40,633 nucleotides of DNA from positions 1-40,633 of the IMG/VR virus record IMGVR_UViG_3300048833_000705. One strand, written 5' to 3'. Origin of the DNA: a virus. Under the pieces are notes generated by a model, which saw nothing but the letters and a program-made list of their open reading frames with translations, had not been told where the DNA came from and made no database searches. Positions 11,716-34,513 of the stretch are shown here, piece by piece. The position numbers were made by a program, and so were the translations under genes. Within the stretch, counting starts at the first letter, position 1. Every line of letters begins with the position of its first letter.

Positions 11716-11736
11716 GCCGGTGACAACGTCACCGGC
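11716..11736. promoter_or_regulatory. perfect palindrome, candidate late operator site 1 (lysis)
   Basis: The arms GCCGGTGAC and GTCACCGGC are separated by three bases (AAC). It lies 26 bases after the mor stop and about 78 before the endolysin ATG. The core GGTGAC-N3-GTCACC recurs before the head and sheath blocks. No T-run follows, which argues against a simple terminator. No clear -10 box is visible. Confidence 0.65.
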
Positions 11737-11813
11737 CCCCAGGAACAGCCGCCGCGCGAAGGTCCCCCATCTGCCGCAGTCCGCCGCACCGCGCGGCCAT
11801 CGTGGGGGCCGCC

Positions 11814-13070
11814 ATGCTCAAGATCGTCGACCACCGCGCCCAGCGCGACGGCGCACCCGTCGCCTTCGAGCGCACGCCCAACACCAGCCGCGCGCTCGCG
11901 CCGCAGGGCATCATCGTCCACGACACCGCCGGCCATCTCCACGGCGACGACGCCATCTCCTGGCTCTGCAATCCGGCCGCCAAGGCGTCCGCCCATTTCG
12001 TGGTGAAGCGCGACGGCTCCATCACCCAGCTCGCGCCCTGCAACGTGCAGACCTGGCATGCCGGCAAGTCCACCTGGCTCGGCCGCTCGAACGTGAACGG
12101 CTTCGCGGTGGGCATCGAGATCGTCAATCCCGGCAAGCTGGACAAGGCCGGCGACGACTATGTCAACGACCTGAAGGTTAAGGTGCCCGGCCACATGGAC
12201 GTGCAGCCCGCCAGCACCAAGGCGCACGGCTCCGGCTACTGGCTGGCCTACAGTGCCGAGCAGGTGCAAGCGGTCACGGAGCTCTGCCAGGCCCTGCGCG
12301 CGGCTTATCCCGCCATCGGGTGGGTGGCCACCCATTGGGAAATCAGCCCCGGCCGGAAGATCGACACCAATCCGCTGTTCCCGCTGGAGCGCCTGCGCCG
12401 CGCCGTGTTTGGCGACGGCGCGTCCGCGCCCGAGGCCAGAGCGCCCGAGCCGGTCAAGGCGCCGCCCGGCGCGCCGCCGCCCGCCAAGCCGCCCGCCAAG
12501 CCGGCGCCGCAGAAGCCTGCCAACGGCATCGCCGATTGGGAGGTGCGCGGGCTCCAGCAGCGCCTGCGCGACCTCGCCATCACCGAGGTCGGCGCCGTCG
12601 ATGGCATTTGGGGCAGCCGCACCACGGGCGGCGTCGCCGCCTTCCAGGCCTGGCAGGGCATCGCCGTGACGGGCAAGCTGGACGAGGCGACGCGCTCGCG
12701 CCTCTCCGATCCCGACCTTGCGCCCCGGCCGGTCTCTCCGGAGCGCGCGGCCACCACCGTCGAGGACCTGCGCGAGCGCGGCTCCACCACCATCAAGGCG
12801 GCGCAGACGGGGCGTGGCCTGTCCTGGCTGTTCGCGCTTCTCGGGATCGGCGGCGGCGCGCAGCAGGTCGGCCTGGTGGATGGCGCGCAGTCGGTGCTCA
12901 ACGAGGCCGGCGCCATCCGCCCCGTGGTCGAGGGCGCGCGCGACCTTGCCGGCTGGATCGCCAGTGCCTGGTGGATCGCGGCGCTCGTGGGCGCCTACCT
13001 CGTGTGGCACTACTTCGGCGAGATCATCCAGCGCCGATTGGCCGACCAGATTTCCGGCCGGCACATGTGA
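11814..13070 (+). CDS. endolysin: N-acetylmuramoyl-L-alanine amidase with C-terminal membrane segment
   Basis: This 418-residue protein would cut the amide bond between muramic acid and the peptide. I use the ATG at 11814 behind TGGGGG; a GTG at 11802 is in frame. Residues 1-200 are an Amidase_2 domain, with likely zinc ligands His36 (IIVHDTAGH), His174 (ATHWEI) and Asp184 (RKIDTNP). A Pro/Ala/Lys linker follows. A peptidoglycan-binding domain spans about 240-300 (LQQRLRDL, VDGIWGSRTTGGVAAFQ). The end has hydrophobic stretches (WLFALLGIGGG and a segment with ASAWWIAALVGAYLVWHYF). The membrane tail is unusual, and no separate holin gene is obvious nearby. Confidence 0.88.
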   Translation: MLKIVDHRAQRDGAPVAFERTPNTSRALAPQGIIVHDTAGHLHGDDAISWLCNPAAKASAHFVVKRDGSITQLAPCNVQTWHAGKSTWLGRSNVNGFAVGIEIVNPGKLDKAGDDYVNDLKVKVPGHMDVQPASTKAHGSGYWLAYSAEQVQAVTELCQALRAAYPAIGWVATHWEISPGRKIDTNPLFPLERLRRAVFGDGASAPEARAPEPVKAPPGAPPPAKPPAKPAPQKPANGIADWEVRGLQQRLRDLAITEVGAVDGIWGSRTTGGVAAFQAWQGIAVTGKLDEATRSRLSDPDLAPRPVSPERAATTVEDLRERGSTTIKAAQTGRGLSWLFALLGIGGGAQQVGLVDGAQSVLNEAGAIRPVVEGARDLAGWIASAWWIAALVGAYLVWHYFGEIIQRRLADQISGRHM

Positions 13071-13077
13071 GGCCGGC

Positions 13078-13416
13078 ATGATCGCGACGGGTTCCGCCAT
13101 CCTGGGTTTCTTCCTCGGCCCGCTCGGCCGATGGGTCGGCCTGGGCCTCGTCTTGGTCGCCCTCTACGGCACGGCCTACACGCGCGGCTACCTCAAGGCG
13201 TCCGGCTCCTGCGAGGCGCAGGCGCTGCGCACCGCCAACACCATCCTCACTCAGCGGATCGAGGCGCTCCAGAGCCTCGGCGAATCCCATGGCGCCCGGC
13301 TGATCGTCGATCGGGCCGCCGACGAGCTCAACAGGACGCGCGTCGATGAGACACCTCAGATTGCTGGCTGCGGCATTGATCGCGACGGGGCTCGCCGGGT
13401 GCGGGCTGTCCGCTGA
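13078..13416 (+). CDS. Rz: Rz-like inner-membrane spanin
   Basis: 112 residues with one N-terminal membrane helix (about 8-32, LGFFLGPLGRWVGLGLVLVA), followed by a helical periplasmic part with coiled-coil character. This is the usual form of an i-spanin, which joins its outer-membrane partner to fuse the two membranes at lysis. The next gene starts inside it in another frame, the classic Rz/Rz1 arrangement. Sequence similarity alone is weak; the call rests on topology and context. Confidence 0.7.
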   Translation: MIATGSAILGFFLGPLGRWVGLGLVLVALYGTAYTRGYLKASGSCEAQALRTANTILTQRIEALQSLGESHGARLIVDRAADELNRTRVDETPQIAGCGIDRDGARRVRAVR

Positions 13417-13633
13417 TCGTCCCGTTCCGCAGCCCAATACGGGCCTGCCCAAGGTGCCCGCCGACTTGCGCGCCTGCTTCGAGGCGGAGGGCGTCGACAT
13501 CCCCGACCGCGATCTCAACGCCGGCGAGGTGGAGCGCCTGTGGAAGGGCGACCGCCGCAAGGGCGTGGCATGGCAGCGGTGCGGCCGCCGGCTGCTCGCC
13601 TGGATCGACGAGCGCGACGCGAGGTGGCGGTGA
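13346..13633 (+). CDS. Rz1: Rz1-like outer-membrane lipoprotein spanin
   Basis: A 95-residue lipoprotein that overlaps the Rz-like gene by 71 bases in a different frame. The signal peptide (MRHLRLLAAALIATGLAGC) ends in an LAGC lipobox with Cys19 as the lipid site. Beyond it is a Pro-containing segment (PVPQPNTGLPKVP) and a charged region with two more Cys. It is longer than lambda Rz1 but fits an o-spanin. A general phage lipoprotein is the alternative. Confidence 0.7.
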   Translation: MRHLRLLAAALIATGLAGCGLSADRPVPQPNTGLPKVPADLRACFEAEGVDIPDRDLNAGEVERLWKGDRRKGVAWQRCGRRLLAWIDERDARWR

Positions 13634-14034
13634 TGGAGCCCGGCAATATTGCTCAATGGGTGGCGCTGGCAGTGGCCGTCAGCACGACGATCTACCAGGC
13701 GGTGAGCCTGCGCAGCAAGGCCGCCGCCGAAAAGGTCTCCGACCTGGAAAAGAAGACGGACGCGAAGTTCAGGGAGGTCGAGGGGAAGGTCGCTGACAAG
13801 TCCTCGGTTGGCCGGATGGGAGCCCTGGAAGAACGCGTCGACAAGGTCGAGGACCGTGTCTCCCGCGCGGAAAGCCGGCTCGAACACATGCCGGACCGTG
13901 AATCCTCTCATCGCCTGGAGCTGGCGATCACCCGACTCGACGGCCGAATGGAGACGCTCGACGAGCGCGTGAAGCCCATCGCCGCCATGGCGCAACGCGT
14001 GCACGAGCGCATGTTCGATGAGGCAGGCAGATGA
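13633..14034 (+). CDS. DUF2730 family protein (membrane helix plus coiled coil)
   Basis: 133 residues. An N-terminal membrane helix (NIAQWVALAVAVSTTIYQAV, residues 5-24) precedes a long heptad-rich coiled coil with repeated ALEERVDKVEDR-type units. This matches DUF2730, found at the same place in Mu-like phages between lysis and terminase genes. Its role is unknown; a lysis-related or membrane scaffold role is possible. It starts one base inside the previous stop. Confidence 0.75.
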   Translation: MEPGNIAQWVALAVAVSTTIYQAVSLRSKAAAEKVSDLEKKTDAKFREVEGKVADKSSVGRMGALEERVDKVEDRVSRAESRLEHMPDRESSHRLELAITRLDGRMETLDERVKPIAAMAQRVHERMFDEAGR

Positions 14035-14333
14035 GCCGAGAGACGTGGCTGCGGGAAGAAGCCCGCCTCATCATCCTCCGGACGCTGGCGGAGGAAGCCA
14101 ACGAGACGCTCAACAGCAACATCCTCCTGCGCGAATTGCGCGAGCGGTGGATGATCACCCGCGACCGACCCTGGCTGCACGCCGAGCTCGATTTCCTCGC
14201 CGAGCTCGGCGCCGTTACGCTGGTCAAGGCCGAGAGCGTCAAGATCGCGACCCTCACCGACCGCGGCCGGCGCCACCTCGACCGGGAGATCGCCCTCGAC
14301 GGGGTGAAGCGTCCCTCGCGGCCGGAGGCTTAG
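14031..14333 (+). CDS. Mu gp26-like winged-helix protein
   Basis: A 100-residue protein of the Mu gp26 type. The helices WLREEARLIILRTLAEEA and NSNILLRELRERW precede a recognition-helix-like PWLHAELDFLAELGAVTL and a wing (IATLTDRGRRHLD), as in ArsR-type winged helices. It lies directly before the small terminase gene, as in Mu. A DNA-binding or packaging-related role is inferred. The stop (TAG) abuts the next ATG. Confidence 0.75.
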   Translation: MSRETWLREEARLIILRTLAEEANETLNSNILLRELRERWMITRDRPWLHAELDFLAELGAVTLVKAESVKIATLTDRGRRHLDREIALDGVKRPSRPEA

Positions 14334-14927
14334 ATGACGGGGCGCGGGCGCCTCTCATTCTGGGACACGCTGCCCGAGTGGGCCGACGAGGCGCGGCTGT
14401 GGGCGCTCGCCGCGCTCGCCGAACACAGCTTGACCCAGCTGGAGATTCTCGACGGCGTGAACGAGCGCCTGCGGGTTGCCGCCTGGGCCGAGGGCATCAC
14501 GAGCGATATCCCGCAGGCCTCGCGATCCTCCCTCAACCGCCTTTCCATGCGGCGCGCTTCCGTCACGCGCAAGATGGCGGAGGCGCGCGCGCTCTACGAG
14601 GGCATTGCCTCGCAGTTCGACCACCAGTTCGCGGATGAAAGCGCCGTTGTGCTGGGCGAATTCCTCAAGACGCTGGTCCTGGAAATCGCGGAAACCGGCG
14701 GCGCTTCGGCAAAGGAGGCCATGGAACTCTCTCGCGCCTATCAGTCAATCGTGCAAGGCATGAAAGTATCCTCCGATCGCCGCAGGAAGCTGCAGGAGGA
14801 GTACGACGCGAAGACCAAGGCGGTCATTGATCGTGTTGCGGAAGAGGGTGGGCTTTCCGCCGAGATCATCGGCCAGCTGCGCCGTGACTTCCTGGGCGTG
14901 CGCGCCAAGCCGCAGGATCAGTCGTGA
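14334..14927 (+). CDS. terminase small subunit (Mu gp27-like, DUF3486)
   Basis: 197 residues, the usual size for DUF3486, the Mu-type small terminase that recognises phage DNA for packaging. An N-terminal helical domain (DEARLWALAALAEHSLTQLEIL, residues about 18-39) includes a helix-turn-helix-like part. RSSLNRLSMRRA and a long helical oligomerisation region follow. The gene overlaps the GTG of the large subunit by four bases. Confidence 0.85.
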   Translation: MTGRGRLSFWDTLPEWADEARLWALAALAEHSLTQLEILDGVNERLRVAAWAEGITSDIPQASRSSLNRLSMRRASVTRKMAEARALYEGIASQFDHQFADESAVVLGEFLKTLVLEIAETGGASAKEAMELSRAYQSIVQGMKVSSDRRRKLQEEYDAKTKAVIDRVAEEGGLSAEIIGQLRRDFLGVRAKPQDQS

Positions 14928-16543
14928 CGACAGGCGGCGGCCATGTGTTGCCGCGCATGCAGGTCGCGCTGCCGGAGGAGCTCCCGCGTGGCGCCGAGAT
15001 CCCGGAGAATCTCGACCCGCTCGCCGATGGCGTGCTCATGCGCCACCAGGCCGAATGGCTCGAAGACGAATCGGACCTCAAGCTTGCGGAAAAGGGCCGC
15101 CGGACGGGCGTGACCTTTGCCGAGGCGTTAGATCACACCCTGATCGCAGCCGCCAAGAAATCGGAGGGCGGACAGAACTGCTTCTACATCGGCGACACGA
15201 AGGACAAGGGCCGCGAATTTATTGGCTATGTGGCCCACTTCGCCCGGATCGTCGCCGGTGAGCTCGCCAAGGTCGAGGAGTTCCTGTTCGAGGATCAGAA
15301 GCCGGACGGCGAGATCGGGCAGATCCCGGCGTTCCGCGTCCGGTTTCGGAGTGGCTGCCGCGTGGAGGCCCTGTCGTCCCGGCCCGAGAATATCCGCGGC
15401 TTGCAGGGCACTGTGTGCATCGACGAGGCGGCGTTTCATCGTGACGTGCGCTCGGTGCTCGACAGCGTCAACGCGCTCCTCATTTGGGGTGGCAAGATCC
15501 GCGTCATCAGCACCCACAACGGCATCCTCAACCCGTTCAACGAGCTGATCCGCGAAGCGAAAGCGGGTCGGACCCCCTTCTCCTTGCATTTCATCCCCTT
15601 TGAAAAGGCGGTGACGAACGGCCTCTACAAGCGGGTGTGCCTGGTCAAGGGCAGGACCTGGTCGGCAGAAGATGAGGCCGCCTGGGAACATCGCATCCGC
15701 GCGTCCTACGGACCCCGGCTCGCCATCATGCGTCAGGAGCTCGACGCCATTCCGGCTGAGGCCGAAGGGGCCGCGCTGACGCGGGTGCAGATCGAAGCCT
15801 GCATGGAAGGCGACATCCCGATCGTTCGGTGGTCGCAGAATGACGACTTCAAGAACCTTCCGGAGCACGTGCGGAAGGCGGCGGCGCTGGAGTTCTGCGA
15901 GCGCGAGATCGCTCCCCTGCTGGCGCAGCTCGACCCGCATCGGCCGCATTATTTCGGCGAGGATTTCGCCCGCTCGGGTGATGCCACCGTCATCCTGCCG
16001 GCCGTGCTGGAGCGCACGCTCGTCCGCCGCGTGGTGTTCATGGTCGAGCTCCGCAACATCCCGTTCGACCAGCAGCGAGAAATCTTGTTCTACGTCGTCG
16101 ACGGTCTGCCGCGCTTTTCCGGCGGCGCGCTCGACGCCAACGGCAATGGCGCCTATCTCGCGGAAAAGGCGGCGCAGCGCTATGGCGAGCTGAGGATCGT
16201 CGAGGTCAAGGCGAACCAGGCCTGGTACCGCATCAACTCGACCGCCTATGTCGAGGCGTTCGCAGATCGTACCGTGGTGCTCCCGCGCCACGAGGACGTG
16301 CTCCAGGACCACCAGGCGCTGGCCTATGTGGGCGGCGTCATCAAGGTTCCGGACGATCACCGGTTCAAGGGCTCCGATGGCCTCGACCGGCACGGCGATT
16401 CCGCCATCGCCGGCGTGCTTATGTGGCACGCCTCAACCCTTACTCCGCTCGCCTACGAGTACACCCCCGTCTCCGCGATCGGCGCCGACGATGAAGAGGG
16501 CTCGATCTTCGACGAGCCGACAGGAGGCCGCGCGCTATGGTGA
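14924..16543 (+). CDS. terminase large subunit (Mu gp28-like)
   Basis: A 539-residue packaging motor: ATPase plus nuclease. The N-terminal ATPase has the degenerate Walker A typical of Mu gp28 (LAEKGRRTGVTFAEA) and Walker B at Asp167-Glu168 (TVCIDEAAF). A motif resembling coupling motif III follows (IRVISTHNG). The C-terminal RNase H-like nuclease begins near YFGEDFARSGDATVI (Asp347) and continues through VEVKANQAWY and a late Asp-rich stretch. Mu-like phages package by headful from host-flanked copies. It starts at GTG and overlaps the portal gene by 7 bases. Confidence 0.93.
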   Translation: MTTGGGHVLPRMQVALPEELPRGAEIPENLDPLADGVLMRHQAEWLEDESDLKLAEKGRRTGVTFAEALDHTLIAAAKKSEGGQNCFYIGDTKDKGREFIGYVAHFARIVAGELAKVEEFLFEDQKPDGEIGQIPAFRVRFRSGCRVEALSSRPENIRGLQGTVCIDEAAFHRDVRSVLDSVNALLIWGGKIRVISTHNGILNPFNELIREAKAGRTPFSLHFIPFEKAVTNGLYKRVCLVKGRTWSAEDEAAWEHRIRASYGPRLAIMRQELDAIPAEAEGAALTRVQIEACMEGDIPIVRWSQNDDFKNLPEHVRKAAALEFCEREIAPLLAQLDPHRPHYFGEDFARSGDATVILPAVLERTLVRRVVFMVELRNIPFDQQREILFYVVDGLPRFSGGALDANGNGAYLAEKAAQRYGELRIVEVKANQAWYRINSTAYVEAFADRTVVLPRHEDVLQDHQALAYVGGVIKVPDDHRFKGSDGLDRHGDSAIAGVLMWHASTLTPLAYEYTPVSAIGADDEEGSIFDEPTGGRALW

Positions 16544-18177
16544 CATCCGCCATCCTCGATCGCTACGGCCGCCCGATGGAGCGGCCGCAGCTCGGAGTCG
16601 AGATCGCCACCCCGACCCTCGCCGGCGTGCGCGGCACGCTGGCCGACCGGGTCGCCTCCGGCCTCACGCCCGAGCGCCTGGCCGCGGTGCTCCGCCGGGC
16701 GGAGACCGGCGAGATCCGCGACTACCTCACTCTCGCCGAGGAGATGGAGGAGCGGTATCTGCACTATGCCAGCCAGGTGCAGACGCGGCGCCTCGCCATC
16801 GAGACGGTGGAGCTCTCGCTCCAAGTGCCCAAGGGCGTCCCGACCAAGGTGGCCGACGCCGTCCGGAGCCTGCTCGAATCGCCCGACCTGCTGGAGGCGG
16901 CCGGCGCGCTCACGGACGGCATCGCCAAGGGCCTGTCCATCGTCGAGATGGCGTGGGAGTACGAGCGCGGCGCGCTGCGGCCGGTCAAGTACACATGGCG
17001 CGACCCGCGCTATTTCCGGTTCGACCGGCTGTCCATGACCGAGCTGCGCCTCGCCAGCGACACCAACATGGATGGCGAACCGTTGCCCGCCTGGGCGTTC
17101 ATGCGCCACTTGCCGCGGTCCAAGATGGGCATTCCCATCCGTCGCGGCTTCGCGCGGGCCGCCACCTGGGCGTTCCTTTTCCAGAGCTTCGCCCTCAAGG
17201 ATTGGGCGGCATTCGCCGAGATCTACGGCATCCCGCTGCGCGTCGGCTCCTACCATCCCGGCGCCAGCGAGAAGGACAAGCGCACCCTCCTGCGCGCCGT
17301 GGCCGGCATCGCCTCCGACGCCGCGGCGATCATTCCGCAGGGCATGACGATCGACTTCCACGAGGTGAAAGGCTCGCAGGGGGAGAGCGTGTTCGGCTCG
17401 CTCACGGCCTATCTCGACCGCCAGATTTCCAAGCTGGTGGTGGGGCAGACCATGACGTCCGACGACGGATCGTCCGAGGCTCAGGCGAAGGTCCACAACG
17501 AAGTCAGGCTCGACATCCTGAAGGCCGACTGCCGCCAGCTCGCCAACACCATCAATCGCGACCTCATCGAGCCGTTCGTGCTCTTCAACTTCGGGCCGCA
17601 GGACGCGTTTCCCGTGGCCGAGCTGCCCGTCGCCGAGCCGGAGGACATCAAGGAATTGACGGAGGCGGTGGCGCGCCTGGTGCCGCTCGGCCTCAAGGTG
17701 GGGCAGCGCGACATGCGTGAGCGCATCGGCATCTCGGAGCCGGCGCCAGACGAGGACGTCCTCGCCGTGCGCGCGGCCGAGCCGGCAGAGCAGGACGCCG
17801 CGCAAAAGCCCCCTTCAAAGCCCCTTGAAAAGGGCGCGAAGAAGCCCGCCGGCCTCGCTGCCGGCGGCGGCTTCGCCCACCCGCGCGGATGCGCCTGCGG
17901 CGGGTGCCGTGCCTTCGCGGCGCTGGCGGCCGATGGCGACGGCATCGACGTGGACGCCGAGCTCGAGGCGCTGCTCGCCGAGGGGCTCGCGGATTGGGAA
18001 GATCTGGCGGACCCGGTCCTGGAGCCGCTGCGGGCGGCGCTGGCGGCCGCCACGTCCTTCGACGATCTCATTGCCGCCCTGCCGGAGGTGGCCCGCAAGG
18101 GCGGCGGCAACCGCCTGGCCGAGCGTCTGGCGCGCCTTGCCGCCATCGCCCGCGGCCTCGGCGACGTGGCCGACTAG
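16537..18177 (+). CDS. portal protein (Mu gp29-like, DUF935)
   Basis: A 546-residue DUF935 portal, forming the ring through which DNA enters the head. Recognisable parts are the N-terminal RYGRPMERPQL, the YLTLAEEMEERYLHYASQ helix, YTWRDPRYFRFDR and the crown/clip region with DWAAFAEIYGIPLRVGSY. An AGGAGG ribosome site precedes the start. The C-terminus is odd. A KPPSKPLEKGAKK linker coincides with a TTNAA repeat. A Cys cluster (Cys452, 454, 457) and an acidic helical domain to the end follow. The cluster may bind metal. Confidence 0.92.
   Translation: MVTSAILDRYGRPMERPQLGVEIATPTLAGVRGTLADRVASGLTPERLAAVLRRAETGEIRDYLTLAEEMEERYLHYASQVQTRRLAIETVELSLQVPKGVPTKVADAVRSLLESPDLLEAAGALTDGIAKGLSIVEMAWEYERGALRPVKYTWRDPRYFRFDRLSMTELRLASDTNMDGEPLPAWAFMRHLPRSKMGIPIRRGFARAATWAFLFQSFALKDWAAFAEIYGIPLRVGSYHPGASEKDKRTLLRAVAGIASDAAAIIPQGMTIDFHEVKGSQGESVFGSLTAYLDRQISKLVVGQTMTSDDGSSEAQAKVHNEVRLDILKADCRQLANTINRDLIEPFVLFNFGPQDAFPVAELPVAEPEDIKELTEAVARLVPLGLKVGQRDMRERIGISEPAPDEDVLAVRAAEPAEQDAAQKPPSKPLEKGAKKPAGLAAGGGFAHPRGCACGGCRAFAALAADGDGIDVDAELEALLAEGLADWEDLADPVLEPLRAALAAATSFDDLIAALPEVARKGGGNRLAERLARLAAIARGLGDVAD
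17814..17829 (+). repeat. TTNAA repeat pair, copy 3 (portal linker)
   Basis: TTCAA at 17814-17818 and TTGAA at 17825-17829, 11 bp apart, lie in the part of the portal gene encoding a Pro/Lys linker. The flank AAGCCCCCTTCAAA nearly matches the right arm of the copy after gemA. Confidence 0.5.
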
Positions 18178-18179
18178 GC

Positions 18180-19556
18180 ATGCGCCGGCGCGCCTTCCTC
18201 GGCCTGCTGCTGGCGGCGCTCGCCGGCACCGTGAAGCGCGGCATGGATGCCCCGCCCGAGGTGCTGGACTATTTCCGGCGCAAGGACATGGCGCCGAACT
18301 TTTCCTGGCTCGACGTTTGGGGTGAGGAGCACGCCCACGCCTTCACCGTCGCCGGCGTCACCGAGGCGCGGGTGCTGGCGGAGTTCCGCGCCGGCATCGA
18401 CAAGGCCATCGCGGACGGCCAGGGCTTCGAGGCGTTCCGCGAGGAGATGATGCGCCGCCTCACCCCGCACGGCTGGTGGGGTGCCCGCGACGTGGTGGAC
18501 CCCGTCACCGGCAGGGCGAAGCGGGTGGACTTCTCCTCGCCGCGCCGGCTCCAGACGACGTTCTGGTCCAACATGCGGGCGGCCCGCTCGGCGGGCCAGT
18601 GGGACCGCGCGCAACGCACCAAGTCGGCGCTGCCCTACATCCTGTACGTCCGCACGGTCGCAGCTGACCCGAGGCAGGAGCACTTGCGATGGGCCGGCAC
18701 TATCCTGCACGTGGACGATCCGACCTGGAAATGGCTGTGGCCCCCGAACGGGTGGGGCTGCAAGTGCGCGGTGCGGCAGATCTCGGCCTCGCAGCGGGAT
18801 CGCTATCTGGAGGCCAAGAAGGGCGCGGACGGGGTGTTCTACACCGATGCCGCCCCGCCCGAGAATGCCAAGCCGTACCTCAACCGCCGCACGGGCGAGA
18901 CCACCATGGTCCCGGCCGGCATCGATCCCGGCTGGCATACGAACCCCGGCATCGGCCGGGCGAAGACGGTGGGGCAGCAGCTCGTCGACCGCCTGGTGGA
19001 GCAACCGCCTGCCGTGCAGCGGGCGATGACGGAACGCGCGGTGAATTCGCCGGGCTTCGAGAGCTTTGTCGAGCGAGCGCACCGGCGGGAGGTTGCGTGG
19101 AGCAAGGTGCCAGAAGTCGAGCGGGGCTCGCTCGACGTGCGCCGCACGCATTGGGACGATGCGCCGATGCCGCTGGCCGTGATACCGGCCGAGGTCGCCC
19201 AGGCCACTGCCTCCTCGCCCCTCGTCACGGTGACGGACTTTGCCGTCGCGCACAACAGAACCCACCCTCTGCCGGCGTCGGTCTGGTCATGGGTGCAAAG
19301 GATGGTCGACATCGGCGAAATCCGCCGGCGCGCGAGTGACGACGCATTGCAGGTGCTGGTGCCGCGATCGAGGGAGCGCAAGCCGAAATGGTGGTATCTC
19401 ATCCTGAGCCGTGATGCGCGAGCAGGCTGGCGCGTCCGCACTCTGATGCCCGCCAAGGACGGATACATTCAGAATGAGCGCGCCCGCGGCCTGTTGGTGC
19501 GGGCCGGGACGGCAGACGCAATCGAGGATGAAGACGCGGCGGAGGAGAGGCCGTGA
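18180..19556 (+). CDS. F: MuF head morphogenesis protein with probable C-terminal nuclease domain
   Basis: A 458-residue protein. Residues 20-230 are the MuF minor head domain, with YFRRKDMAPNFSWLDVW, a TTFWSNMRAARSAGQW segment and WPPNGWGCKCAVRQI. In related phages this protein sits at the portal inside the head. After a linker (about 230-300) comes a separate 110-residue domain: VTDFAVAHNRTHPLPASVW, a charged loop, and WWYLILSRDARAGWRVRTLM. This layout matches the phage barnase/EndoU/colicin E5/RelE-like (PBECR) nuclease family. If right, the head carries an RNase-like effector. The fusion follows a tail-end ATG just past the portal stop. Confidence 0.85.
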   Translation: MRRRAFLGLLLAALAGTVKRGMDAPPEVLDYFRRKDMAPNFSWLDVWGEEHAHAFTVAGVTEARVLAEFRAGIDKAIADGQGFEAFREEMMRRLTPHGWWGARDVVDPVTGRAKRVDFSSPRRLQTTFWSNMRAARSAGQWDRAQRTKSALPYILYVRTVAADPRQEHLRWAGTILHVDDPTWKWLWPPNGWGCKCAVRQISASQRDRYLEAKKGADGVFYTDAAPPENAKPYLNRRTGETTMVPAGIDPGWHTNPGIGRAKTVGQQLVDRLVEQPPAVQRAMTERAVNSPGFESFVERAHRREVAWSKVPEVERGSLDVRRTHWDDAPMPLAVIPAEVAQATASSPLVTVTDFAVAHNRTHPLPASVWSWVQRMVDIGEIRRRASDDALQVLVPRSRERKPKWWYLILSRDARAGWRVRTLMPAKDGYIQNERARGLLVRAGTADAIEDEDAAEERP

Positions 19557-19638
19557 CCCCTCTCACCGGACTTGCCGGAAGGAACGGTGCCCGAGGGCAA
19601 TGGTTCTCCGCCGCAGAGCGCAGAATACTCCCGCCGTC

Positions 19639-19664
19639 GGCCAAGGGCAATCGGCCGCTTGGCC
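19639..19664 (+). terminator. possible hairpin after the F gene
   Basis: GGCCAAG and CTTGGCC are perfect 7-bp arms around a 12-base loop, about 80 bases past the F stop. No U tract follows, so function as a terminator is uncertain. Confidence 0.3.
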
Positions 19665-19809
19665 CCGCGGGCGCAGGCGAGGCATCCGCCTGATCCTCTC
19701 GGGTCGGCGGCGCCCATATTCCAAATCGCGTTAGAGGCCGCTGGAGGCGCCTCGGGTGCCTTCCGGGCGACGGTGGCCGCGGCCGGACCCTGATCGGCCG
19801 CCCACGGCG

Positions 19810-19825
19810 TTAAATGGCCCTTTAA
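19810..19825 (+). repeat. TTNAA repeat pair, copy 4 (gap before protease gene)
   Basis: TTAAA starting at 19810 and TTTAA starting at 19821 lie 11 bp apart in the most AT-rich part of the gap, about 70 bases upstream of the second palindrome. It could also serve as an UP-element-like stretch. Confidence 0.4.
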
Positions 19826-19896
19826 TTTTCGGATGGCACGGACAAGGATCACGCGGGAGGCGCCGTGGCGCGTTTCGGCGGCCCGCTGCTCCGGCC

Positions 19897-19911
19897 GGTG
19901 ACAGTGTCACC
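19897..19911. promoter_or_regulatory. palindrome, candidate late operator site 2 (protease/head)
   Basis: GGTGAC and GTCACC arms are separated by AGT, 38 bases before the protease ATG at 19949. The layout equals sites 1 and 3. In Mu an activator-dependent promoter lies before the corresponding gene I. Confidence 0.65.
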
Positions 19912-19948
19912 AGGGCGACGATCTGGGGCGCGTCGGTAGCGTGCCCTC

Positions 19949-20944
19949 ATGCCGCGTCCCTCCGCAACCCCCGCTTCGCCCTATGCCACCGGCGTCATCG
20001 CCGCCGAGGTGGCCGAGCTTGCCGCCGGCGCAGAGCCGCCGGCCGAGATCAAGATCACGCCGGCCGGTGCGGTCACCACCCGCGACGGGCGCGTCTACTC
20101 GTTCGACGCGGCGGCGCTGGTGGCGCGCTTTGCGTCTGACGGCATCGACCTGCCCATCGACCTCGACCACGCGACCTCGCGCCGGGTGCTGTTCGGCGAG
20201 CGGGCCAACGCAGTCGGCTGGATCAAGGGTCTCGCCGCCCGCCCGGACGGCATCTACGCGACCCAGATCGAGTGGCTGCCGGAGGGTCGCGCGGCACTGG
20301 CCGCGCGCAGCCATCGCTACATCTCGCCCACCTTCCACCACACCGAGGCCGGCGCGGCCACCTGGCTGCACTCGGTCGCTCTCGTGACCGCTCCGGCGCT
20401 CGCCATGCCCGCAGTGGCCGACGCCTCTCACCACCAGGAGACCGCCCCCGTGCTCAAGCAGATCGCCAAGGCGCTCGGCCTCGCCGAGACCGCCGACGAG
20501 GCCGCGTGCCTCAGCGCCATCGCCAACCTCAACACCGGCAAGGTGGACAAGGCCGTGCATGACGAGACGCTCGCCCGTCTCTCGGCCGCCACCACCGAGC
20601 TCGACGGCATTCGCAAGGCGACGCGCGACGGCAAGGTCGCGACCCTCATCGGCGACGCGCTGAAGGCGAAGAAAATCGTGCCCGCGCAAAAGGAGCAGTA
20701 CGAGGCGCTCTGCGCCACCGACGCCGGCCTCGCCCAGGTCGAGGCCCTACTCGCCGCCACGCCCGCCGCGCTTCACGCCAGCGATCTCGACGAGCGCCCG
20801 CACCCCGATCCGGGCGACGGCGGCACGGTCAACCCCGCCACGCTGGCCGCCCAGGCCACCGCCTATCGCAAGAAGATGGCGGATGCCGGCACGCACATGA
20901 GCGTGGCCGACGCCGTCATTGCCGTCCAGGGAGGCGCCAAGTGA
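19949..20944 (+). CDS. head maturation protease/scaffold (Mu I-like)
   Basis: 331 residues of the Mu-like protease family. The N-terminal half is the protease: DGRVYSFDAAALVARF, PIDLDHATSRRVLF, AVGWIKGLAARPDG and RSHRYISPTFHH, the last two being typical blocks of the family, with probable active-site His and Ser. The C-terminal part (from about residue 160) is helical and Ala/Lys-rich, as expected of an internal scaffold. In Mu a shorter scaffold, Z, is made from an internal start. Internal starts exist here too, but none is decisive. It ends overlapping the next GTG. Confidence 0.88.
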   Translation: MPRPSATPASPYATGVIAAEVAELAAGAEPPAEIKITPAGAVTTRDGRVYSFDAAALVARFASDGIDLPIDLDHATSRRVLFGERANAVGWIKGLAARPDGIYATQIEWLPEGRAALAARSHRYISPTFHHTEAGAATWLHSVALVTAPALAMPAVADASHHQETAPVLKQIAKALGLAETADEAACLSAIANLNTGKVDKAVHDETLARLSAATTELDGIRKATRDGKVATLIGDALKAKKIVPAQKEQYEALCATDAGLAQVEALLAATPAALHASDLDERPHPDPGDGGTVNPATLAAQATAYRKKMADAGTHMSVADAVIAVQGGAK

Positions 20945-21300: not shown

Positions 21301-21318
21301 TCGCCGCAGCCCAAACGC

Positions 21319-21333
21319 GCCGCGGCTCGCGGC
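21319..21333 (+). repeat. small GC hairpin before the capsid gene
   Basis: GCCGCG and CGCGGC flank a 3-base loop in the 51-base gap before the capsid start. It could pause transcription or protect a processed capsid mRNA; there is no U tract. Confidence 0.3.
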
Positions 21334-21351
21334 ACACCTTGAGAGGTCACC

Positions 21352-22314: not shown

Positions 22315-22315
22315 C

Positions 22316-22888: not shown

Positions 22889-22932
22889 GTCCCCCGCCAC
22901 CGGCGTCGGCTCCGGCACCCTTGGGTGTCCCT

Positions 22933-24172: not shown

Positions 24173-24759
24173 TCGCGCCCTCCACACTCGCGCAGCGCCT
24201 CGCCGCGACCCGGCTCCTGGAGCTTCCGCTCGCCGTTGAAGCGACCTTGAAGCCGCTGTTCCCGGACATCACCGTGCGCACCCTCGCCGGCAAGATCGAC
24301 ATGAGCGACGTGATCGAGGGCGAGGCCTACCAGCCGCCGATGATCGCCGTCACGCTCACGCGCTGGCGCGCACCGGTGGCCGTGAATGGCCGCGTGGACC
24401 TGCCGGTCGAGCTCGCGGCCTATGTGGTGACCGAGGAGAAGGCGTTCGGCGCCACCTCCGTCACGCGCGAGGCGGTGGCCTATGCGCTCACCGCCGGCCT
24501 CATGGAGATCCTCGCGGACTTCGACACGTCCCGGTGGGGCCTCACGAGAATCTCGGAGCCCGAGGAGATCGAGGCTCGGCCGATCTTCACGGCGCAGGCC
24601 TTCGCCAAGGGCGTCGCCTATTACTCGGTCACGTGGCGCCAGACGCTGCTGGGCCTCGGCTCCGACCCGCTGGCGCGCATGGTCTACACGGGCGTGGAAA
24701 GCGTCGATGACGGCGTCACCACCGTGTGGCCGCCGGACCTTTCGGAGGCGCCGGTATGA
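24169..24759 (+). CDS. Mu gp37-like protein (DUF1834)
   Basis: A 196-residue protein of the DUF1834/gp37 family, thought to be a tail terminator or joining protein. Visible features are LKPLFPDITVRTLAGKID, a central strand-rich part (LPVELAAYVVTEEKAFGAT), the helix AVAYALTAGLMEIL and a C-terminal strand with YYSVTWRQTLLLG-like content. It overlaps the previous gene by 4 bases and the V gene by 4 bases, linking head and baseplate blocks. Confidence 0.8.
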   Translation: MIAPSTLAQRLAATRLLELPLAVEATLKPLFPDITVRTLAGKIDMSDVIEGEAYQPPMIAVTLTRWRAPVAVNGRVDLPVELAAYVVTEEKAFGATSVTREAVAYALTAGLMEILADFDTSRWGLTRISEPEEIEARPIFTAQAFAKGVAYYSVTWRQTLLGLGSDPLARMVYTGVESVDDGVTTVWPPDLSEAPV

Positions 24760-25367
24760 GCCCCTCCCTTCGCGCCCTCGCGCAACGGCTCGGCCTGATC
24801 GAGCGTCGCCTCGTCGAGCAGGACCAGCGCCTCGCGCGCCAGCTCCTGCGCGGCAAGGTGAAGGAGGTCCGCAAGAAGGACGGCGATTGGCAGGTGCGCG
24901 TGGACCTCGGCCAGGCCGGGAGCGACGAGCCGGTCCTCTCGCCGTGGGTGCACGTGCAGCCGGCCTCGTCCGGCGCCCTCAAGATCAAGGTCAAGCCCAC
25001 CGAGGGCGAGGCCATGACCGTGCTCTCGCCTTCCGGCGTCGTGGGCAGCGGCAGCTGGGCGGTGCGGTCTCCGTTCACCGACACGCACCCGGCGCCGGAA
25101 GGTGACGAGGACGTGGTGATCGAGCGCGGCGAGACCCGCCTCACGATCGAGGACGGCAAGGTGGTGATGTCCACCGGCGATGCCCGCATCGAGCTCGCCG
25201 GCGGCGACATCAAGATCAGCGGCAAGATCGAGATCCACGGCGACGTGGCGATCGACGGCGGCAGCCTCACGCACAAGGGCGCCAACATCGGCAACACCCA
25301 CCGGCACATCAACGTCATGCCGGGGCTCGCCATCTCCGGCCCACCCCAACCAGGAGCCAGCACGTGA
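24756..25367 (+). CDS. V: baseplate spike protein V (P2 gpV-like)
   Basis: 203 residues. The N-terminal OB-like domain (VKEVRKKDGDWQVRVDLG) is followed by HVQPASSGALKIKVKPTEGE. Then comes a run of short beta repeats (VVIERGETRLTIEDGKVVMS, AGGDIKISGKIEIHGDV) that forms the needle. The tip has NTHRHINVMPG, where the HxH pattern can bind iron, as in P2 gpV. It pierces the outer membrane at infection. It is the first gene of the P2-type tail module. Confidence 0.9.
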   Translation: MSPSLRALAQRLGLIERRLVEQDQRLARQLLRGKVKEVRKKDGDWQVRVDLGQAGSDEPVLSPWVHVQPASSGALKIKVKPTEGEAMTVLSPSGVVGSGSWAVRSPFTDTHPAPEGDEDVVIERGETRLTIEDGKVVMSTGDARIELAGGDIKISGKIEIHGDVAIDGGSLTHKGANIGNTHRHINVMPGLAISGPPQPGAST

Positions 25368-25573: not shown

Positions 25574-25580
25574 GGCCGCC

Positions 25581-27963: not shown

Positions 27964-27965
27964 AA

Positions 27966-30900: not shown

Positions 30901-31133
30901 CCAATCTCAAGGCGCGCCTGCCGGCGGGATCGGGCGTCACGGTGGAGCTCGACGTGGGAGGCGTGTGGACCGCTGTGCCGCTGACCGCCACCGAGTCGCT
31001 CAATGACGGCTGGGCCGAGCGCGAGCACACCGTCGCATCCATCACCAGCGCTGAGACGCGCGTGCGGCTGACGCTCACCGGGACGCCGGCGGCGCGGCCC
31101 TCGCTCGCCGACCCGCGCGCAGTCTCGATCTGA
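27966..31133 (+). CDS. large DUF4815 tail/baseplate-associated protein
   Basis: 1055 residues, the largest gene here. The N-terminus (DAFDRSADRPAWDGVVFRE and AQGAELNEVQSIAGRRARR) is that of DUF4815, a family encoded next to phage baseplate and fibre genes. A long beta-rich body follows, with domains such as NHGPIDAINSVVITKQV and IRWGHNDSTVSARTTVADV, ending in a carbohydrate-binding-like module (YVSRRFTAGTAARVS). In position it replaces P2 H as the fibre or side-tail component. It may attach fibres to the baseplate. Confidence 0.75.
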   Translation: MPFTHPSSLPDAFDRSADRPAWDGVVFRERRFAQGAELNEVQSIAGRRARRVGDLVARDGDRIEGADIIVDAPGERLVLGAGRIYVRGDVRPVPARVIEDVALAGDVTVGVRLVASYVTEDDDPALLGLAAGSLGEGEPGAARLVETLSWALAGDAGAGDFFGVYLVRDGSVIDQTPPPSLSGVNAAIAVYDRDANGSYVVEGCRVTALGAAGGSQVFSVSEGVANIFGYKRTRQTSLRHAEPESWDVETVDAEPHTFADGGSGTATIVLNHGPIDAINSVVITKQVTETVVRGTPNNTSDALAHTGVTMIVSVTQGATTYAAGGDYTLAADRVNWAPGGAEPAGGSSYQVTYRYLDAVAVDSQTADTITVSGGVTGSSVIVGYDWRLPRVDLVCLDQAGGVVYLRGTSARSAPIAPISPVTLLPLAEVTNDWRGTPAVRNSGVRSMPYSQIWRMWNRLVDALDLIALERLRSDVDAREPVAKRGVFVDPCTDDSFRDQGEPQTAAVFLGSIQLAIDPTFHAVEIAAPIMLDWIEEVIISQPLKTGCMKINPYANFEPLPARLTLDPSTDFWTVEQTEWLSPQTLAITRRQIRWGHNDSTVSARTTVADVLVDEREELLEFLREMPVAFQVRGFGPGETLASLTFDGVDVTPAGPLAADGDGEIAGTITIPEGIVAGTKEVVATGGAGAIARALFVGQGEISVEVMQRQRLVEVTITHWTDPLAQTFALPAQRHVLGVNLYPCAIGDAANPLVVDLVPTATGLPTREVRAAAYQPMTGVEAGDMLDVRWAAPIYIPADREMAFVVKTDDAAHALSIATLGDFDAVAQRWVSAQPYAVGTLLSSANASTWTPHQAADLAFELVAAKFTATTKTMDLGSFDLVDCSDLLILATVELPTAECKFRFELVRAGGAVIEVQPNQPMEFSAYITETVQLRAVLTGTAQVSPTLWPGITLVAGKMRASGTYVSRRFTAGTAARVSTNLKARLPAGSGVTVELDVGGVWTAVPLTATESLNDGWAEREHTVASITSAETRVRLTLTGTPAARPSLADPRAVSI
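27972..27987 (+). repeat. weak TTNAA repeat pair (DUF4815 start)
   Basis: A degenerate core (TTTAC, 27972) and TTCAA (27983-27987) are 11 bp apart in the first codons of the DUF4815 gene. One core is imperfect, so membership in the repeat family is uncertain. Confidence 0.3.
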
Positions 31134-31143
31134 GGAGGGGCCC

Positions 31144-32286
31144 ATGGCCATCGTGGATGATCGCACCTCCCGCAACTACCCGCTGCCGCACGCGAGCAAC
31201 AAGCTGCCCGAGGACGTAGAGCGGCTGCGCGAAGCCTTCACGGCCATCGACACCGACATGGCCGCGGCACTCTTGCAGATCGCCGGCAAGGCGGCCGCCG
31301 CGCACGTCCACGCCATGGGCGACGTGACCGGCCTGGTGGCGGCGCTCGCCGGCAAGGCCGCGCTGGCCCATCTCCACGCGCTCGCGGACCTGACCGACAC
31401 GGACGTCACCGGCGCCACCAACGGCCAGTTGCTCAAGAAGATCGGCTCGAAGTGGCAGCCCGGCTCGATCTCGCTGGCGGACGTGGTGGGCTGGGAGGGC
31501 ACCGTCGCGTCGATGATCGCGGCCCAGGTGGCGGGCCTGGTGGGCGGATCGCCCGCCACCCTCGACACGCTGGACGAACTCGCGCAGGCGCTTGGGGGCG
31601 ATCCGGACTTCGCCACCACCATAGCGACCGCCCTCGGCAACCGGTTGCGCATCGACGCCGGTCAGACGCTCAATCCGACGCAGCAGGGGCAGGGACGATC
31701 CAACCTCGGCCTCGGCGGCCTGGCCGTGCTGAGCTCGATCGCCGATGCCGGACTGATCGCCAACTCCATCTTAACCTTCGCCAAGCTCCACGCCTCCGCC
31801 GTCGCCTCGCAGGCCGAGGCCGAGGCCGCCGCCGCCAGCGACAAGCTCATGACTCCGCTGCGGGTGCGGCAGGCGGTCATCAAGTGGCTGGCGACCGTGG
31901 AGCAGGCGGAAGCCGGAACGGCGACCGACGTGCTCATGACGCCGGCCACCACCAAGGCCGAGGTGCGAAAGCTCAGTGAGGCCAGCCTCACTCTCAATGG
32001 GTATCAGAAGATGCCCTCCGGCCTGATCATGCAGTGGGGCAAGTTCACGGGCGCCAGCGAAAGCACCGTGAATTTCCCGGTCGTCTTTCCCGAGAACGTG
32101 TTCTCGGTAACCGCGACGTTGGTCGATCCGACCAACTTCGCCGTGTCCAACACTTGGAGCGCCGCCATCAGCTCCATCACGACAAGCGGCTTCCTTGCCC
32201 GCCGCCGCCTTAATACCTCGACCGGCGGCAATTCCATCAACACCATCACGGCGATCGACATCAACTGGATGGCGCTCGGCAACTAG
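31144..32286 (+). CDS. tail fibre protein
   Basis: 380 residues. The start (AIVDDRTSRNYPLPHASN) and EDVERLREAFTAIDTDM are typical of fibres that attach to the baseplate. Two HxH repeats (AHVHAMGDVTGL and AHLHALADLTD) match metal-binding trimer segments. The C-terminus (KMPSGLIMQWGKFTG, FPVVFPENVFSVTATLVD, DINWMALGN) is the gp53-like receptor-binding tip. Unlike Mu, no invertible G segment or second fibre set is seen. A GAGGGGCCC ribosome site precedes the ATG. Confidence 0.88.
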   Translation: MAIVDDRTSRNYPLPHASNKLPEDVERLREAFTAIDTDMAAALLQIAGKAAAAHVHAMGDVTGLVAALAGKAALAHLHALADLTDTDVTGATNGQLLKKIGSKWQPGSISLADVVGWEGTVASMIAAQVAGLVGGSPATLDTLDELAQALGGDPDFATTIATALGNRLRIDAGQTLNPTQQGQGRSNLGLGGLAVLSSIADAGLIANSILTFAKLHASAVASQAEAEAAAASDKLMTPLRVRQAVIKWLATVEQAEAGTATDVLMTPATTKAEVRKLSEASLTLNGYQKMPSGLIMQWGKFTGASESTVNFPVVFPENVFSVTATLVDPTNFAVSNTWSAAISSITTSGFLARRRLNTSTGGNSINTITAIDINWMALGN

Positions 32287-32295
32287 GAGGGCACC

Positions 32296-32538
32296 ATGTC
32301 GCGCGGATTTCTGAAGGCAGCGGGTCGTGTGGCGGTCCAGCATTGGACCATCGTCCCCTCCAATGACCCCATGCTGGTGCGTCCCTGGGCCATCGTCGCG
32401 CTGACCGATGGTGTGGCAGCGCTGGTGGATGAGGCGGGGACGGCCGTTTCCTATCCCGTGACGGCCGGCCAGCAACTCAACATCTGCCCGGTCAAAGTGC
32501 TGCCGGCGACCACCGCGACCCTGGTGGGCTGGAGATAG
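32296..32538 (+). CDS. hypothetical fibre-associated protein, 80 aa
   Basis: A strand-rich 80-residue protein (VQHWTIVPSNDPMLVRPWAIV; GVAALVDEAGTAVSYPVTAG). It starts behind AGGAGGGCACC right after the fibre stop. The spacing suggests a partner of the fibre, but no family is recognised. Small beta-rich proteins of this kind follow fibre genes in other phages. Confidence 0.55.
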   Translation: MSRGFLKAAGRVAVQHWTIVPSNDPMLVRPWAIVALTDGVAALVDEAGTAVSYPVTAGQQLNICPVKVLPATTATLVGWR

Positions 32539-32541
32539 CCG

Positions 32542-33864
32542 GTGCCCTGGCCGACGCCCAACGCCAACATCAACAGCCTCATAGCCCAGCGCGGCCTAAG
32601 GCGCTGGTGGGCCGGCGCAGCCTATCGGCTCGATGGCGTCGCGCCCGCCCTCGCGGCCGACTTCGCCCGCGGGCGCTTCGCTCTGGCCGGCGCGCTGGTG
32701 CCGCTCTCCTCGGTCCTCGCCGTCTCGTCCGGCGCCAAACGGGTGTTCGACGGCTCCGGTGCGCTGGCGACCGTCCCAGCCGACACGCCAGCCTTCACGT
32801 GGCGCGGCGGGAAGCGGCGCCTCCTGATCGAGGGGCCTGCGGTCAATCTGGCGTGGTTCTCGGACATGCGTCTGTGGACGCCGATCAACGGCCTCACCGT
32901 CGCTGACGGACCTGCTGGACCGGACGGCGTCACCCCCTGGGCACGTATCGCCGATACCAATGACGCAGGCACGAGCAACCTGCGCGTGGTCGCGGATATC
33001 CCCCAGGACACGACCACCTACGTTGCCTCGCTACTGGTGCTCAAGGACCCGACCGCCGTCTCCAACGGCCAGCTAAGGATCAACTTGGCCGGGGGCACCA
33101 CCCCCTTGGAGTTCCGACTGGCGGTGAAGCAGAAATCCGGCGGCATCGGAGACACAAGCGGCTCGCCTGTGGGGGCTTGGTATACCGACTATGGCCTCTT
33201 CGGGCTCGTGGAGATGGCCTTCGCCAACAACGGCACCAACAACAAGCTCAACATCTCGTATTTTCCAGCGGCCGTCCCCGATCCGGGCAGCGCGTCGGTC
33301 GCCACCCCCAGCACGACCACCGGCCACGCTTATGTCGCGTGGGGGCAGGCCGAGGTCGGCACCCGTGCCACCTCGCGTATCCTCGCAGCCGGGACGCAGG
33401 CCGCACGCATCGCCGACGTGGTGCAACTCTCCGCAGGCGCGGCGGCGCCGCTCCAAGGTGCGGCAGCCACGATGGCGTGGCGCGGGCGCGTGCTTCTGTC
33501 GGCCGTCAACTTGCCGCTTGTCGGCCTGTCCTCAGGATATGCGCTGCTCCGCGCGTCGGCGAACAGCAACAACATCGTGCTCGACGGAAGCAGTGCCTCG
33601 GGGCTGGTCCTGTCGACTGGCGTCACCATGCCTGGAGAGGTCCCTGCGGCCATCGGTTGGGATGGCACGGGGCGGGCGGGTGCCATGAACGGCGAGACGG
33701 CGAAGTCCGATGTGGCCACACTCGACCGCTCGCGTGCCAGCGTTTGGCTCGGCGGCTATCAGGGCCTCCCCGCCGGCCGCGCACTGGAGATTGACGAACT
33801 GGTGGTTTGGCCGGTGCGCGGCTCCGGCGCGGCGCTCATCGCACAGGCTAGGGGGTGGGCATGA
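32542..33864 (+). CDS. putative tail/adhesin protein with lectin-like domain
   Basis: 440 residues from a GTG at 32542. The first 110 residues (RWWAGAAYRLDGVAPAL, and a GGKRRLLIEGPAVNLAWFSD motif) resemble the N-terminal part of tail proteins that carry carbohydrate-binding domains. The middle is beta-rich, with a jelly-roll pattern (TTTYVASLLVLKD, VEMAFANNGTNNKLNISYFP), and the end is a second beta domain (IDELVVWPVRGSG). A role in host surface recognition is likely. The codon use appears less extreme than in the neighbours, which could mean recent exchange. Confidence 0.6.
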   Translation: MPWPTPNANINSLIAQRGLRRWWAGAAYRLDGVAPALAADFARGRFALAGALVPLSSVLAVSSGAKRVFDGSGALATVPADTPAFTWRGGKRRLLIEGPAVNLAWFSDMRLWTPINGLTVADGPAGPDGVTPWARIADTNDAGTSNLRVVADIPQDTTTYVASLLVLKDPTAVSNGQLRINLAGGTTPLEFRLAVKQKSGGIGDTSGSPVGAWYTDYGLFGLVEMAFANNGTNNKLNISYFPAAVPDPGSASVATPSTTTGHAYVAWGQAEVGTRATSRILAAGTQAARIADVVQLSAGAAAPLQGAAATMAWRGRVLLSAVNLPLVGLSSGYALLRASANSNNIVLDGSSASGLVLSTGVTMPGEVPAAIGWDGTGRAGAMNGETAKSDVATLDRSRASVWLGGYQGLPAGRALEIDELVVWPVRGSGAALIAQARGWA

Positions 33865-34223
33865 GCACGGCGGTCCCCATCACGATCTACCTTCGCTTTC
33901 CCGACCGGGACACCGCCCGCGCCGCCTTCGCGCTCTACGGCTCCGGCACCGTCGAGGGGCCGGACGGCGTGCCCGTCTGGCCGTCCTGCGGCACCTATCA
34001 GGGCCACCGCTACGACATCGCCGTGGTGGGCGCGGACGGGACGATCTTCCGCCCGACCGGCGAGACGGTGGAGACCGATCCGGAGCTTGGCCCCATGCCG
34101 GTGCTGGCAGCGGTCGCCGGCTTCCATGTGAACGTGCTGTGGCACGGGCCGGACGAGCTGATCCCGGACTTCGGCGCGGCACGGGTGTTCCCGGTCACGC
34201 CGGAAGGCGGGTTCGTGTCATGA
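33861..34223 (+). CDS. hypothetical protein, 120 aa
   Basis: From the ATG at 33861 (a GTG at 33855 is in frame). TIYLRFPDRDTARAAFALYG and GTIFRPTGETVETDPELG are seen, then GFHVNVLWHG. Proteins with this pattern often follow fibre genes in alphaproteobacterial phages. No function is known; a fibre assembly or decoration role is conceivable. It overlaps both neighbours by 4 bases. Confidence 0.6.
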   Translation: MSTAVPITIYLRFPDRDTARAAFALYGSGTVEGPDGVPVWPSCGTYQGHRYDIAVVGADGTIFRPTGETVETDPELGPMPVLAAVAGFHVNVLWHGPDELIPDFGAARVFPVTPEGGFVS

Positions 34224-34468
34224 GGGCGATCCCCATTCACAATCACCCCGAACGCGCCCGGCGCCGGCGTGCGGCGGAGCGGGTGCTGCGCGATGCGCTG
34301 GCGCGGGTGCGCTCCGGCGAGGTCGACGAACTGGTGATCCTCATGATCGCGCCGGACGGAACGACCACCCGCGAGCGCACCGATTTGCGGAATGCGGACG
34401 TGGCGCTCGGCGCCCTCCGGCGGGCGGAGCACGAGATCCTGCAGACGGTCGAGAGGTCGGGCGGGTGA
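34220..34468 (+). CDS. hypothetical protein, 82 aa
   Basis: A short basic protein with an Arg-rich helix (ERARRRRAAERVLRDALARV), a strand (GEVDELVILMIAPDG) and a charged helical end. No family is recognised. It is the last gene of the baseplate/fibre block. Its stop codon lies inside the third GGTGAC palindrome. Confidence 0.55.
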   Translation: MRAIPIHNHPERARRRRAAERVLRDALARVRSGEVDELVILMIAPDGTTTRERTDLRNADVALGALRRAEHEILQTVERSGG

Positions 34469-34478
34469 CGGCGTCACC
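34464..34478. promoter_or_regulatory. palindrome, candidate late operator site 3a (sheath block)
   Basis: GGTGAC and GTCACC arms are separated by GGC. It overlaps the stop of the preceding gene and lies about 60 bases before the sheath ATG. It is the same 15-bp layout as sites 1 and 2. Confidence 0.6.
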
Positions 34479-34498
34479 GGAGTATCCGCGGGCGCCCC

Positions 34499-34513
34499 GA
34501 TGACACCGTCACC
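34499..34513. promoter_or_regulatory. imperfect palindrome, candidate late operator site 3b (sheath block)
   Basis: GATGAC and GTCACC are separated by ACC, one mismatch from the consensus. It lies 35 bp from site 3a centre to centre, followed at once by another GTGAC half-site at 34515. A tandem operator is suggested. Confidence 0.5.

Follow-up and report, generated by a model that had tools for sequence, protein, structure and literature searches.

The stretch of viral DNA that concerns us here (the window: IMG/VR record IMGVR_UViG_3300048833_000705, analyzed over its full 40,633 bases at 70% G+C) encodes a Mu-type transposase, an AAA/TniB-like protein and a set of late genes for amidase, terminase, portal, protease, major head, baseplate, fiber, sheath and tape-measure proteins, and it holds exactly three perfect copies of one palindrome, GGTGAC-N3-GTCACC. 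The first, with AAC at its center (11719..11733, unstranded like the others), precedes the endolysin gene, an amidase (11802..13070, plus strand; Pfam Amidase_2 at 7.1e-22 and PHROG lysis families) whose start, by our reading, is likely the ATG at 11814. The second, centered on AGT (19897..19911), precedes the head maturation protease (19949..20944, plus strand; PHROG 328, E 3.1e-56), and the third, centered on GGC (34464..34478), precedes the tail sheath (34537..35970, plus strand; PHROG 23, E 2e-60). An initial annotation, made from the letters alone, had placed the copies before these three genes, and both coordinates and gene identities hold. Because baseplate and fiber genes sit between the head and the sheath genes, the three palindromes open three separate late blocks. 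Before the first of them lies a Mor/C-type gene (11264..11689, plus strand, GTG start, 141 amino acids) whose product matches PHROG 836, "late transcriptional activator," at E 4.7e-25. We argue, with a probability of roughly 0.88, that the palindromes are late operators to which this single Mor/C-family activator would bind.

The palindrome appeared in none of 100 dinucleotide shuffles of the window, and when one mismatch is allowed there are five sites, against a mean of 0.07 and a maximum of one in 60 Markov-1 sequences. The two imperfect copies are GATGAC-ACC-GTCACC at 34499..34513, which the initial annotation had listed, and one that it had missed, found by the mismatch search at 24706..24720 inside the open frame 24482-25105 and probably due to chance (both unstranded). 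Fifteen genomes holding related prophages (69.9 Mb, a sum of rounded genome sizes) contain 23 perfect copies of GGTGAC-N3-GTCACC, against five of a backwards control, and this density of about 0.33 per Mb would give about 0.013 copies per 40.6 kb. A related word, GCTGACANNTGTCAGC, has 16 copies in six of the 15 genomes, its control has none, and 14 of the 16 cluster at activator loci, as placed by matching coordinates. On the R. palustris JSC-3b scaffold there are two such loci (L112 and L115), and a fourth GCTGACANNTGTCAGC copy falls, again by matched coordinates, within the stretch of the second.

Relatives carry palindromes in the same three places. Searches of viral contigs with the sheath and protease gave 15 and 13 loci, partly from shared records, and by reading we find a palindrome upstream of the sheath in 14 of the 15 (two of the GGTGAC-N3 type, eleven of the GCTGAC-N4 kind, with those of L009, L010 and L014 imperfect, and one CCGGAA-N4, in L013). 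Upstream of the protease it is present in all 12 loci that have upstream DNA (L027 is cut inside the gene; L020 and L021 are identical there, with one base changed). Behind the Mor-type gene it is found in 14 of 15 phages, mostly within ~50 base pairs (bp) and in G010, G011 and G014 at 200-460 bp. The window and nine related records each have the full set of three, none with more than one mismatch, and the letters of the palindrome differ between clades. That the word would exceed its shuffled controls, be rare in host genomes and keep its positions in the nearest relatives had all been anticipated, and each has turned out so. A near-identity search of phage records with window positions 11200-20700 gave no match. 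Stop codons meet these sites in a few places: that of the open frame upstream of the third operator (34466-34468) falls within its left arm, GGTGAC, and the activator genes of L088 and L105 likewise end in stop codons that abut or enter the palindrome. In L115, L121 and L163 the activator gene stands directly before the protease gene rather than lys, and no operator was recognized there.

What, then, is the protein? Aligned profile to profile with hhalign, the window's activator matches Mu Mor at E 4.2e-6 (probability 87) and Mu C at E 1.7e-4 (probability 49); Mu Mor and Mu C themselves match PHROG 836 at 1.2e-10 and 2.1e-11, and PHROG 532 better still. Against the Pfam Mor family (PF08765) the activator scores 15.9 bits, below the gathering cut-off of 24.9, a score that is reached in two of 22 related records; at E 0.1 or below the family is matched by 46 of the 50 members of alignment A2. 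Homologues of the activator occur in 14 of the 22 related records. A search of viral contigs with its sequence alone confirmed nothing, whereas an alignment used as the query succeeded. Foldseek found no match in the PDB to the modeled activator at E 0.001 or better, and a profile search reached the solved Mor structure, 1rr7, only at E 0.39. An AlphaFold model built from 50 sequences (mean predicted local distance difference test score, pLDDT, 84; a single-sequence model was poor, at 57) makes helices 107-114 and 118-129 a helix-turn-helix, with residues 118-125, RRAAYRMR (11615..11638, plus strand), as the predicted recognition helix. Among 23 records searched at E ≤1, the window and each of the 14 others that have any such frame have just one, so a succession of Mor and then C is not seen in them; the search used a profile of the activator's own family alone, which a very distant second activator could escape. 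The initial annotation's view of one Mor-type gene, standing before the first site, is thus upheld.

Our main ground for taking the Mor-type protein to be what reads the palindrome is that the operator co-varies with this protein's recognition helix. Searches with alignments turned up 105 loci, 39 of them in named genomes and 66 in viral contigs, and these yielded 104 activator frames and 86 distinct proteins, the window's included. Half-sites and spacings were set manually for 67 proteins (for L109 we took the operator from its phage's protease and sheath sites), and 19 that lacked a clear operator were omitted, several of which show a single or conflicting palindrome (L089, L093, L099, L105, L108, L113, L115, L121, L122, L143, L155, L159, L163, L168, L175, L180, L181, L186 and L187). 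The partial Mantel correlation between operator and helix, given the rest of the protein, stood at 0.43-0.45 (p 0.0002) whichever of four redundancy cut-offs was used (n = 67, 51, 33 and 22), whereas that between operator and the rest of the protein, given the helix, was not significant. When every eight-residue window of the protein was tried (133 windows, n = 51), residues 118-125 did best, with a partial r of 0.547 against a median of 0.026.

A rough code can be read from the 67 curated pairs. An Arg just before the conserved helix Arg goes with G at base 2 of the arm in 12 of 12 cases (other residues, 3 of 55), and all 49 proteins with Tyr, Phe, His, Trp or Leu at a later helix position have an operator with T at base 3 (others, 2 of 18); among 33 representatives the figures are 6/6 versus 3/27 and 22/22 versus 2/11. 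Exceptions led us to reject a strict form of this code: three of the pairs (L120, L136 and L174) lack Arg at the first position yet show G at base 2, and two of these (L136 and L174) combine an Arg at the later position with T at base 3. Also rejected was the idea that a seven-residue insertion before the helix-turn-helix sets the N3 spacing (the insertion goes with N4 in L084, and L150 lacks it but has N3). An automatic search, which asked for a palindrome behind the activator gene and a further copy downstream, was run on 67 loci in which the sequence extends 7 kb or more past that gene, a set that differs from the 67 curated proteins. It found a pair at the top score in 36 of 67 loci against 2 of 201 shuffled ones, and at a looser score of 22 in 54 of 67 against 41 of 201. 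Its operator calls agree with the curated result, the best window now being residues 112-119 (p 0.0005). Conserved position and co-variation together support the initial annotation's suggestion of a late operator read by a Mor-type protein.

The third strand of evidence is the arrangement of promoter-like letters behind the sites, which we surveyed at 46 sites picked by hand in 20 records (near-duplicates, namely G018 and the lys site of G021, were omitted). The pattern xAnnnT begins 23-25 bases past the right arm at all 13 lys sites, all 15 sheath sites and 9 of the 18 protease sites, and a TA step occurs at those offsets in 6 of the lys, 17 of the protease and 14 of the sheath sites, against a background of 0.003-0.048 per three-offset window (0.003 for the protease). 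The window's own -10-like boxes, all on the plus strand, are GAAGGT (11758..11763), 24 bp after the first operator; TAGCGT (19937..19942), six bases before the protease ATG; and a degenerate CACCGT (34504..34509), which keeps xAnnnT at offset 25 past the right arm of the third. The initial annotation had seen no -10 boxes, and in this it was mistaken, poor as the sheath box is. It had also counted the one-mismatch copy at 34499-34513 with the operators; the copy exists, but it is probably not an equivalent operator because it lies on the expected -10 position of the sheath promoter, where the two nearest relatives have TAGCCT. If the box is counted as -12 to -7, the spacing would put the center of the dyad at -43.5 to -45.5 (-44 or -45 in the window); in Mu the Mor dimer occupies a 16-bp element centered at -43.5 that replaces the -35 box (PMC4390567), and at the late promoters the activator site lies upstream of -35 (PMC4461284).

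At the protease sites this geometry has a curious consequence. In all 18, five to eight bases separate the box from the ATG (TAGCGTGCACCCATG and variants), and because of this spacing transcription would start on or beside the ATG itself. By eye, no Shine-Dalgarno-like sequence lies between box and ATG at any of the 18 sites, the letters just past the ATG appear conserved, and in five an earlier, out-of-frame ATG overlaps the box. The protease messenger, that is, looks leaderless.

From the sites, their conservation, the -10-like boxes at fixed spacing and the co-variation of helix with operator, all of them observed, we infer a simple mechanism. The activator, presumably produced with the early genes, would bind each palindrome as a dimer, with one helix-turn-helix to each arm; sitting at about -44 from the transcription start, in place of a -35 box, it would recruit or activate the polymerase of the host at the weak -10 box found 23-25 bp further downstream. 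It would thereby switch on three blocks (lysis, terminase and portal; protease, head, baseplate and fiber; sheath and tape measure) in a two-step cascade that does without Mu's separate middle activator.

One might imagine other uses for a G+C-rich palindrome between genes. Intrinsic terminators, or insulators between transcription units, would be expected where these palindromes are found, at block boundaries and able to form hairpins, and a T run does follow the copy behind the activator gene in L106, L107, L126, L135, L142 and L026, as it follows both copies in the named phage RR1-B (L188). Because of these T runs, one element may in such phages be terminator and operator at once. Yet within ~400 bp around each of the window's three perfect copies we found no terminator-like site (and no sigma-70-like site either); none of the three has the G+C stem followed by a T run that defines an intrinsic terminator, just as the initial annotation had argued. 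Terminators, moreover, need neither fixed arm letters within a phage nor arms that co-vary with the helix of an activator, and a -10-like box stands at a fixed distance behind most of the sites examined, so that we hold this explanation very unlikely. Chance, or some by-product of 70% G+C, seems to us practically negligible: such palindromes are common in the window, where other six-base arms recur up to six times, but the empty shuffles, the low density in host genomes and the positions conserved in divergent relatives all speak against accident.

A palindrome alone does not identify its protein, and a repressor, or some other phage or host regulator, might be the true reader. The extra copy at 34499, lying over the -10, would suit repression, and our co-variation test covered the Mor-type protein alone among the phage proteins. 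Nevertheless, operators diverge with the Mor-type recognition helix and not with the rest of that protein, the site lies upstream of a -10-like box, where an activator belongs, and 14 of the 16 host-genome copies of the related word lie at activator loci; another regulator strikes us as a highly improbable reader.

Several observations weigh against activation by the Mor/C-type protein at these sites, and we prefer to set them side by side. Sheath locus L008 shows no palindrome visible by eye, and G003 shows no site after its activator gene; xAnnnT is present at only half of the protease sites (9/18), and in the window the one-mismatch copy overlaps the -10 of the sheath promoter, CACCGT, which is itself poor. 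Hand curation of the 67 operator calls came after the helices had been seen, and the helix positions in the rule for bases 2 and 3 were picked after the table had been viewed. The automatic calls, which form a smaller set (35 loci, thinned to 30 or 23) with at least two plainly wrong calls (L087 and L110), rank residues 118-125 only fifth or third, and their p of 0.0005 is uncorrected for picking the best of 133 windows. In leave-one-out prediction the nearest helix barely beats the rest of the protein (40.4 versus 38.0 of 51, 21.5 versus 18.0 of 33 and 11.9 versus 8.5 of 23), and the Mantel and Fisher tests leave shared ancestry in.

The activator has a second feature, at its C terminus. Its last residues, QGDLF (11672..11686, plus strand), resemble a beta-clamp motif and may serve as one. 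The motif Qxx[LFM][FLM], with its end no more than five residues from the C terminus, is found in 72 of 92 activators, Mu Mor included, and in 63 of these at the very end; shuffled tails gave a mean of 0.39 and a maximum of three. Mu C, with QPDLF seven residues from its end, is counted only among the 77 of 92 that have the motif within 30 residues. Fifteen lack it, six of which retain LF (as HPDLFD, PDLF, GDLFE or GPLFE). On the plus strand of 23 records, 1,846 frames reach 100 codons or more; 13 of them end in strict QxxLF, and 12 of the 13 are activators; under a looser tail rule 14 of 22 matching frames in the same records are. Fourteen further Mor/C relatives from other phages (taken from 36 records, with the Mu group, duplicates and fragments left out) include eight with the motif by the same rule and three more that have it further in. 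The beta-clamp-binding consensus is a C-terminal Q-L-x-L-F (PMC4549789), of which the tails retain Q, L4 and F5, with mostly G at position 2; the tail is modeled at a pLDDT of ~60.

These counts suggest, tentatively and with more doubt than conviction on our part, that the Mor/C family, Mu C and Mor included, carries a clamp-binding tail, which might tie the operator-bound dimer to the sliding clamp that the host leaves on newly replicated phage DNA and so couple late transcription to replication. Contact of the tail with RNA polymerase instead of the clamp is an equally simple reading. Because Mor activates Pm with polymerase in vitro (PMC4287176), the clamp would at most enhance, and the word "clamp" gave no hit in PMC4461284 or PMC4287176. 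Were the tethering real, binding of the tail to the clamp would time the late genes after replication.

Apart from the regulon, frame 9102-9740 of the window holds a DPPW motif, and we take it to resemble an MT-A70-type adenine methyltransferase.

If we are right about the activator and its operators, a regulon of one protein and three promoters would become readable across a broad set of Mu-like phages and prophages, most of them from Alphaproteobacteria. A draft code from helix to operator (Arg with G at base 2; an aromatic residue, His or Leu with T at base 3) would predict late promoters from the protein, and many matched pairs of activator and operator are on offer for tests of protein-DNA specificity. 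Among the literature matches listed, judged by title and abstract opening and with subscription papers mostly outside them, we found no description of these operators or of a clamp motif in Mor or C.

How does all this compare with phages that already have names? The window's protein is a member of PHROG 836, as are those of KS10, POA1180 and RR1-B. In POA1180, a named isolate, CCTGAC-N3-GTCAGG occurs three times, ahead of lys, protease and sheath. The two sites of RR1-B are identical copies of CCGGAA-N5-TTCCGG, and B23 has two CCTGAA-N4-TTCAGG sites; in RR1-B and B23 alike, the sheath gene comes after the head genes with no baseplate block between, and no third copy was found in the 150 bp ahead of it, so gene order may govern how many sites there are. 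A pairing rule applied to the 150 bp before chosen genes gave no repeated palindrome in KS10 and one doubtful pair only in Mu, and thus it fails to rediscover Mu's own C sites. In the parts of the main text of the KS10 and POA1180 papers that were at hand, neither "palindrom" nor "inverted repeat" occurs, and in those of the POA1180 paper "promoter" does not occur either.

With T4 the parallel would lie in the sliding clamp: there, late transcription depends on replication by way of gp45 (PMC6024815), and the likeness would hold if the QxxLF tail binds the host clamp. The proteins are different, and clamp binding by the window's activator is a matter of motif resemblance only; if true, it would be a second, independent case beside T4, with the coupling to replication reached through the host's own clamp.

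Mu is closer. Mor at Pm is a related protein whose dimer sits about where the window's activator is predicted to bind, but Pm has two 5-bp repeats 6 bp apart where the window has longer, near-perfect palindromes, and in the window one protein would serve three late promoters. C, which in Mu drives the late promoters lys, I, P and mom, is likewise a related protein encoded directly before lys, and it acts at lys and I (PMC4461284). The initial annotation had likened the three sites to those before Mu lys, I and P, and the likeness stands for lys and I, but the third site lies in front of the sheath gene, which corresponds to Mu L rather than P, and no second activator of this family was found in the records searched. 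The system is, then, a variant of the Mu Mor/C regulon, with a single activator found where Mu has two, palindromes that are near-perfect, a third promoter for the sheath block, and operators that vary with the helix.

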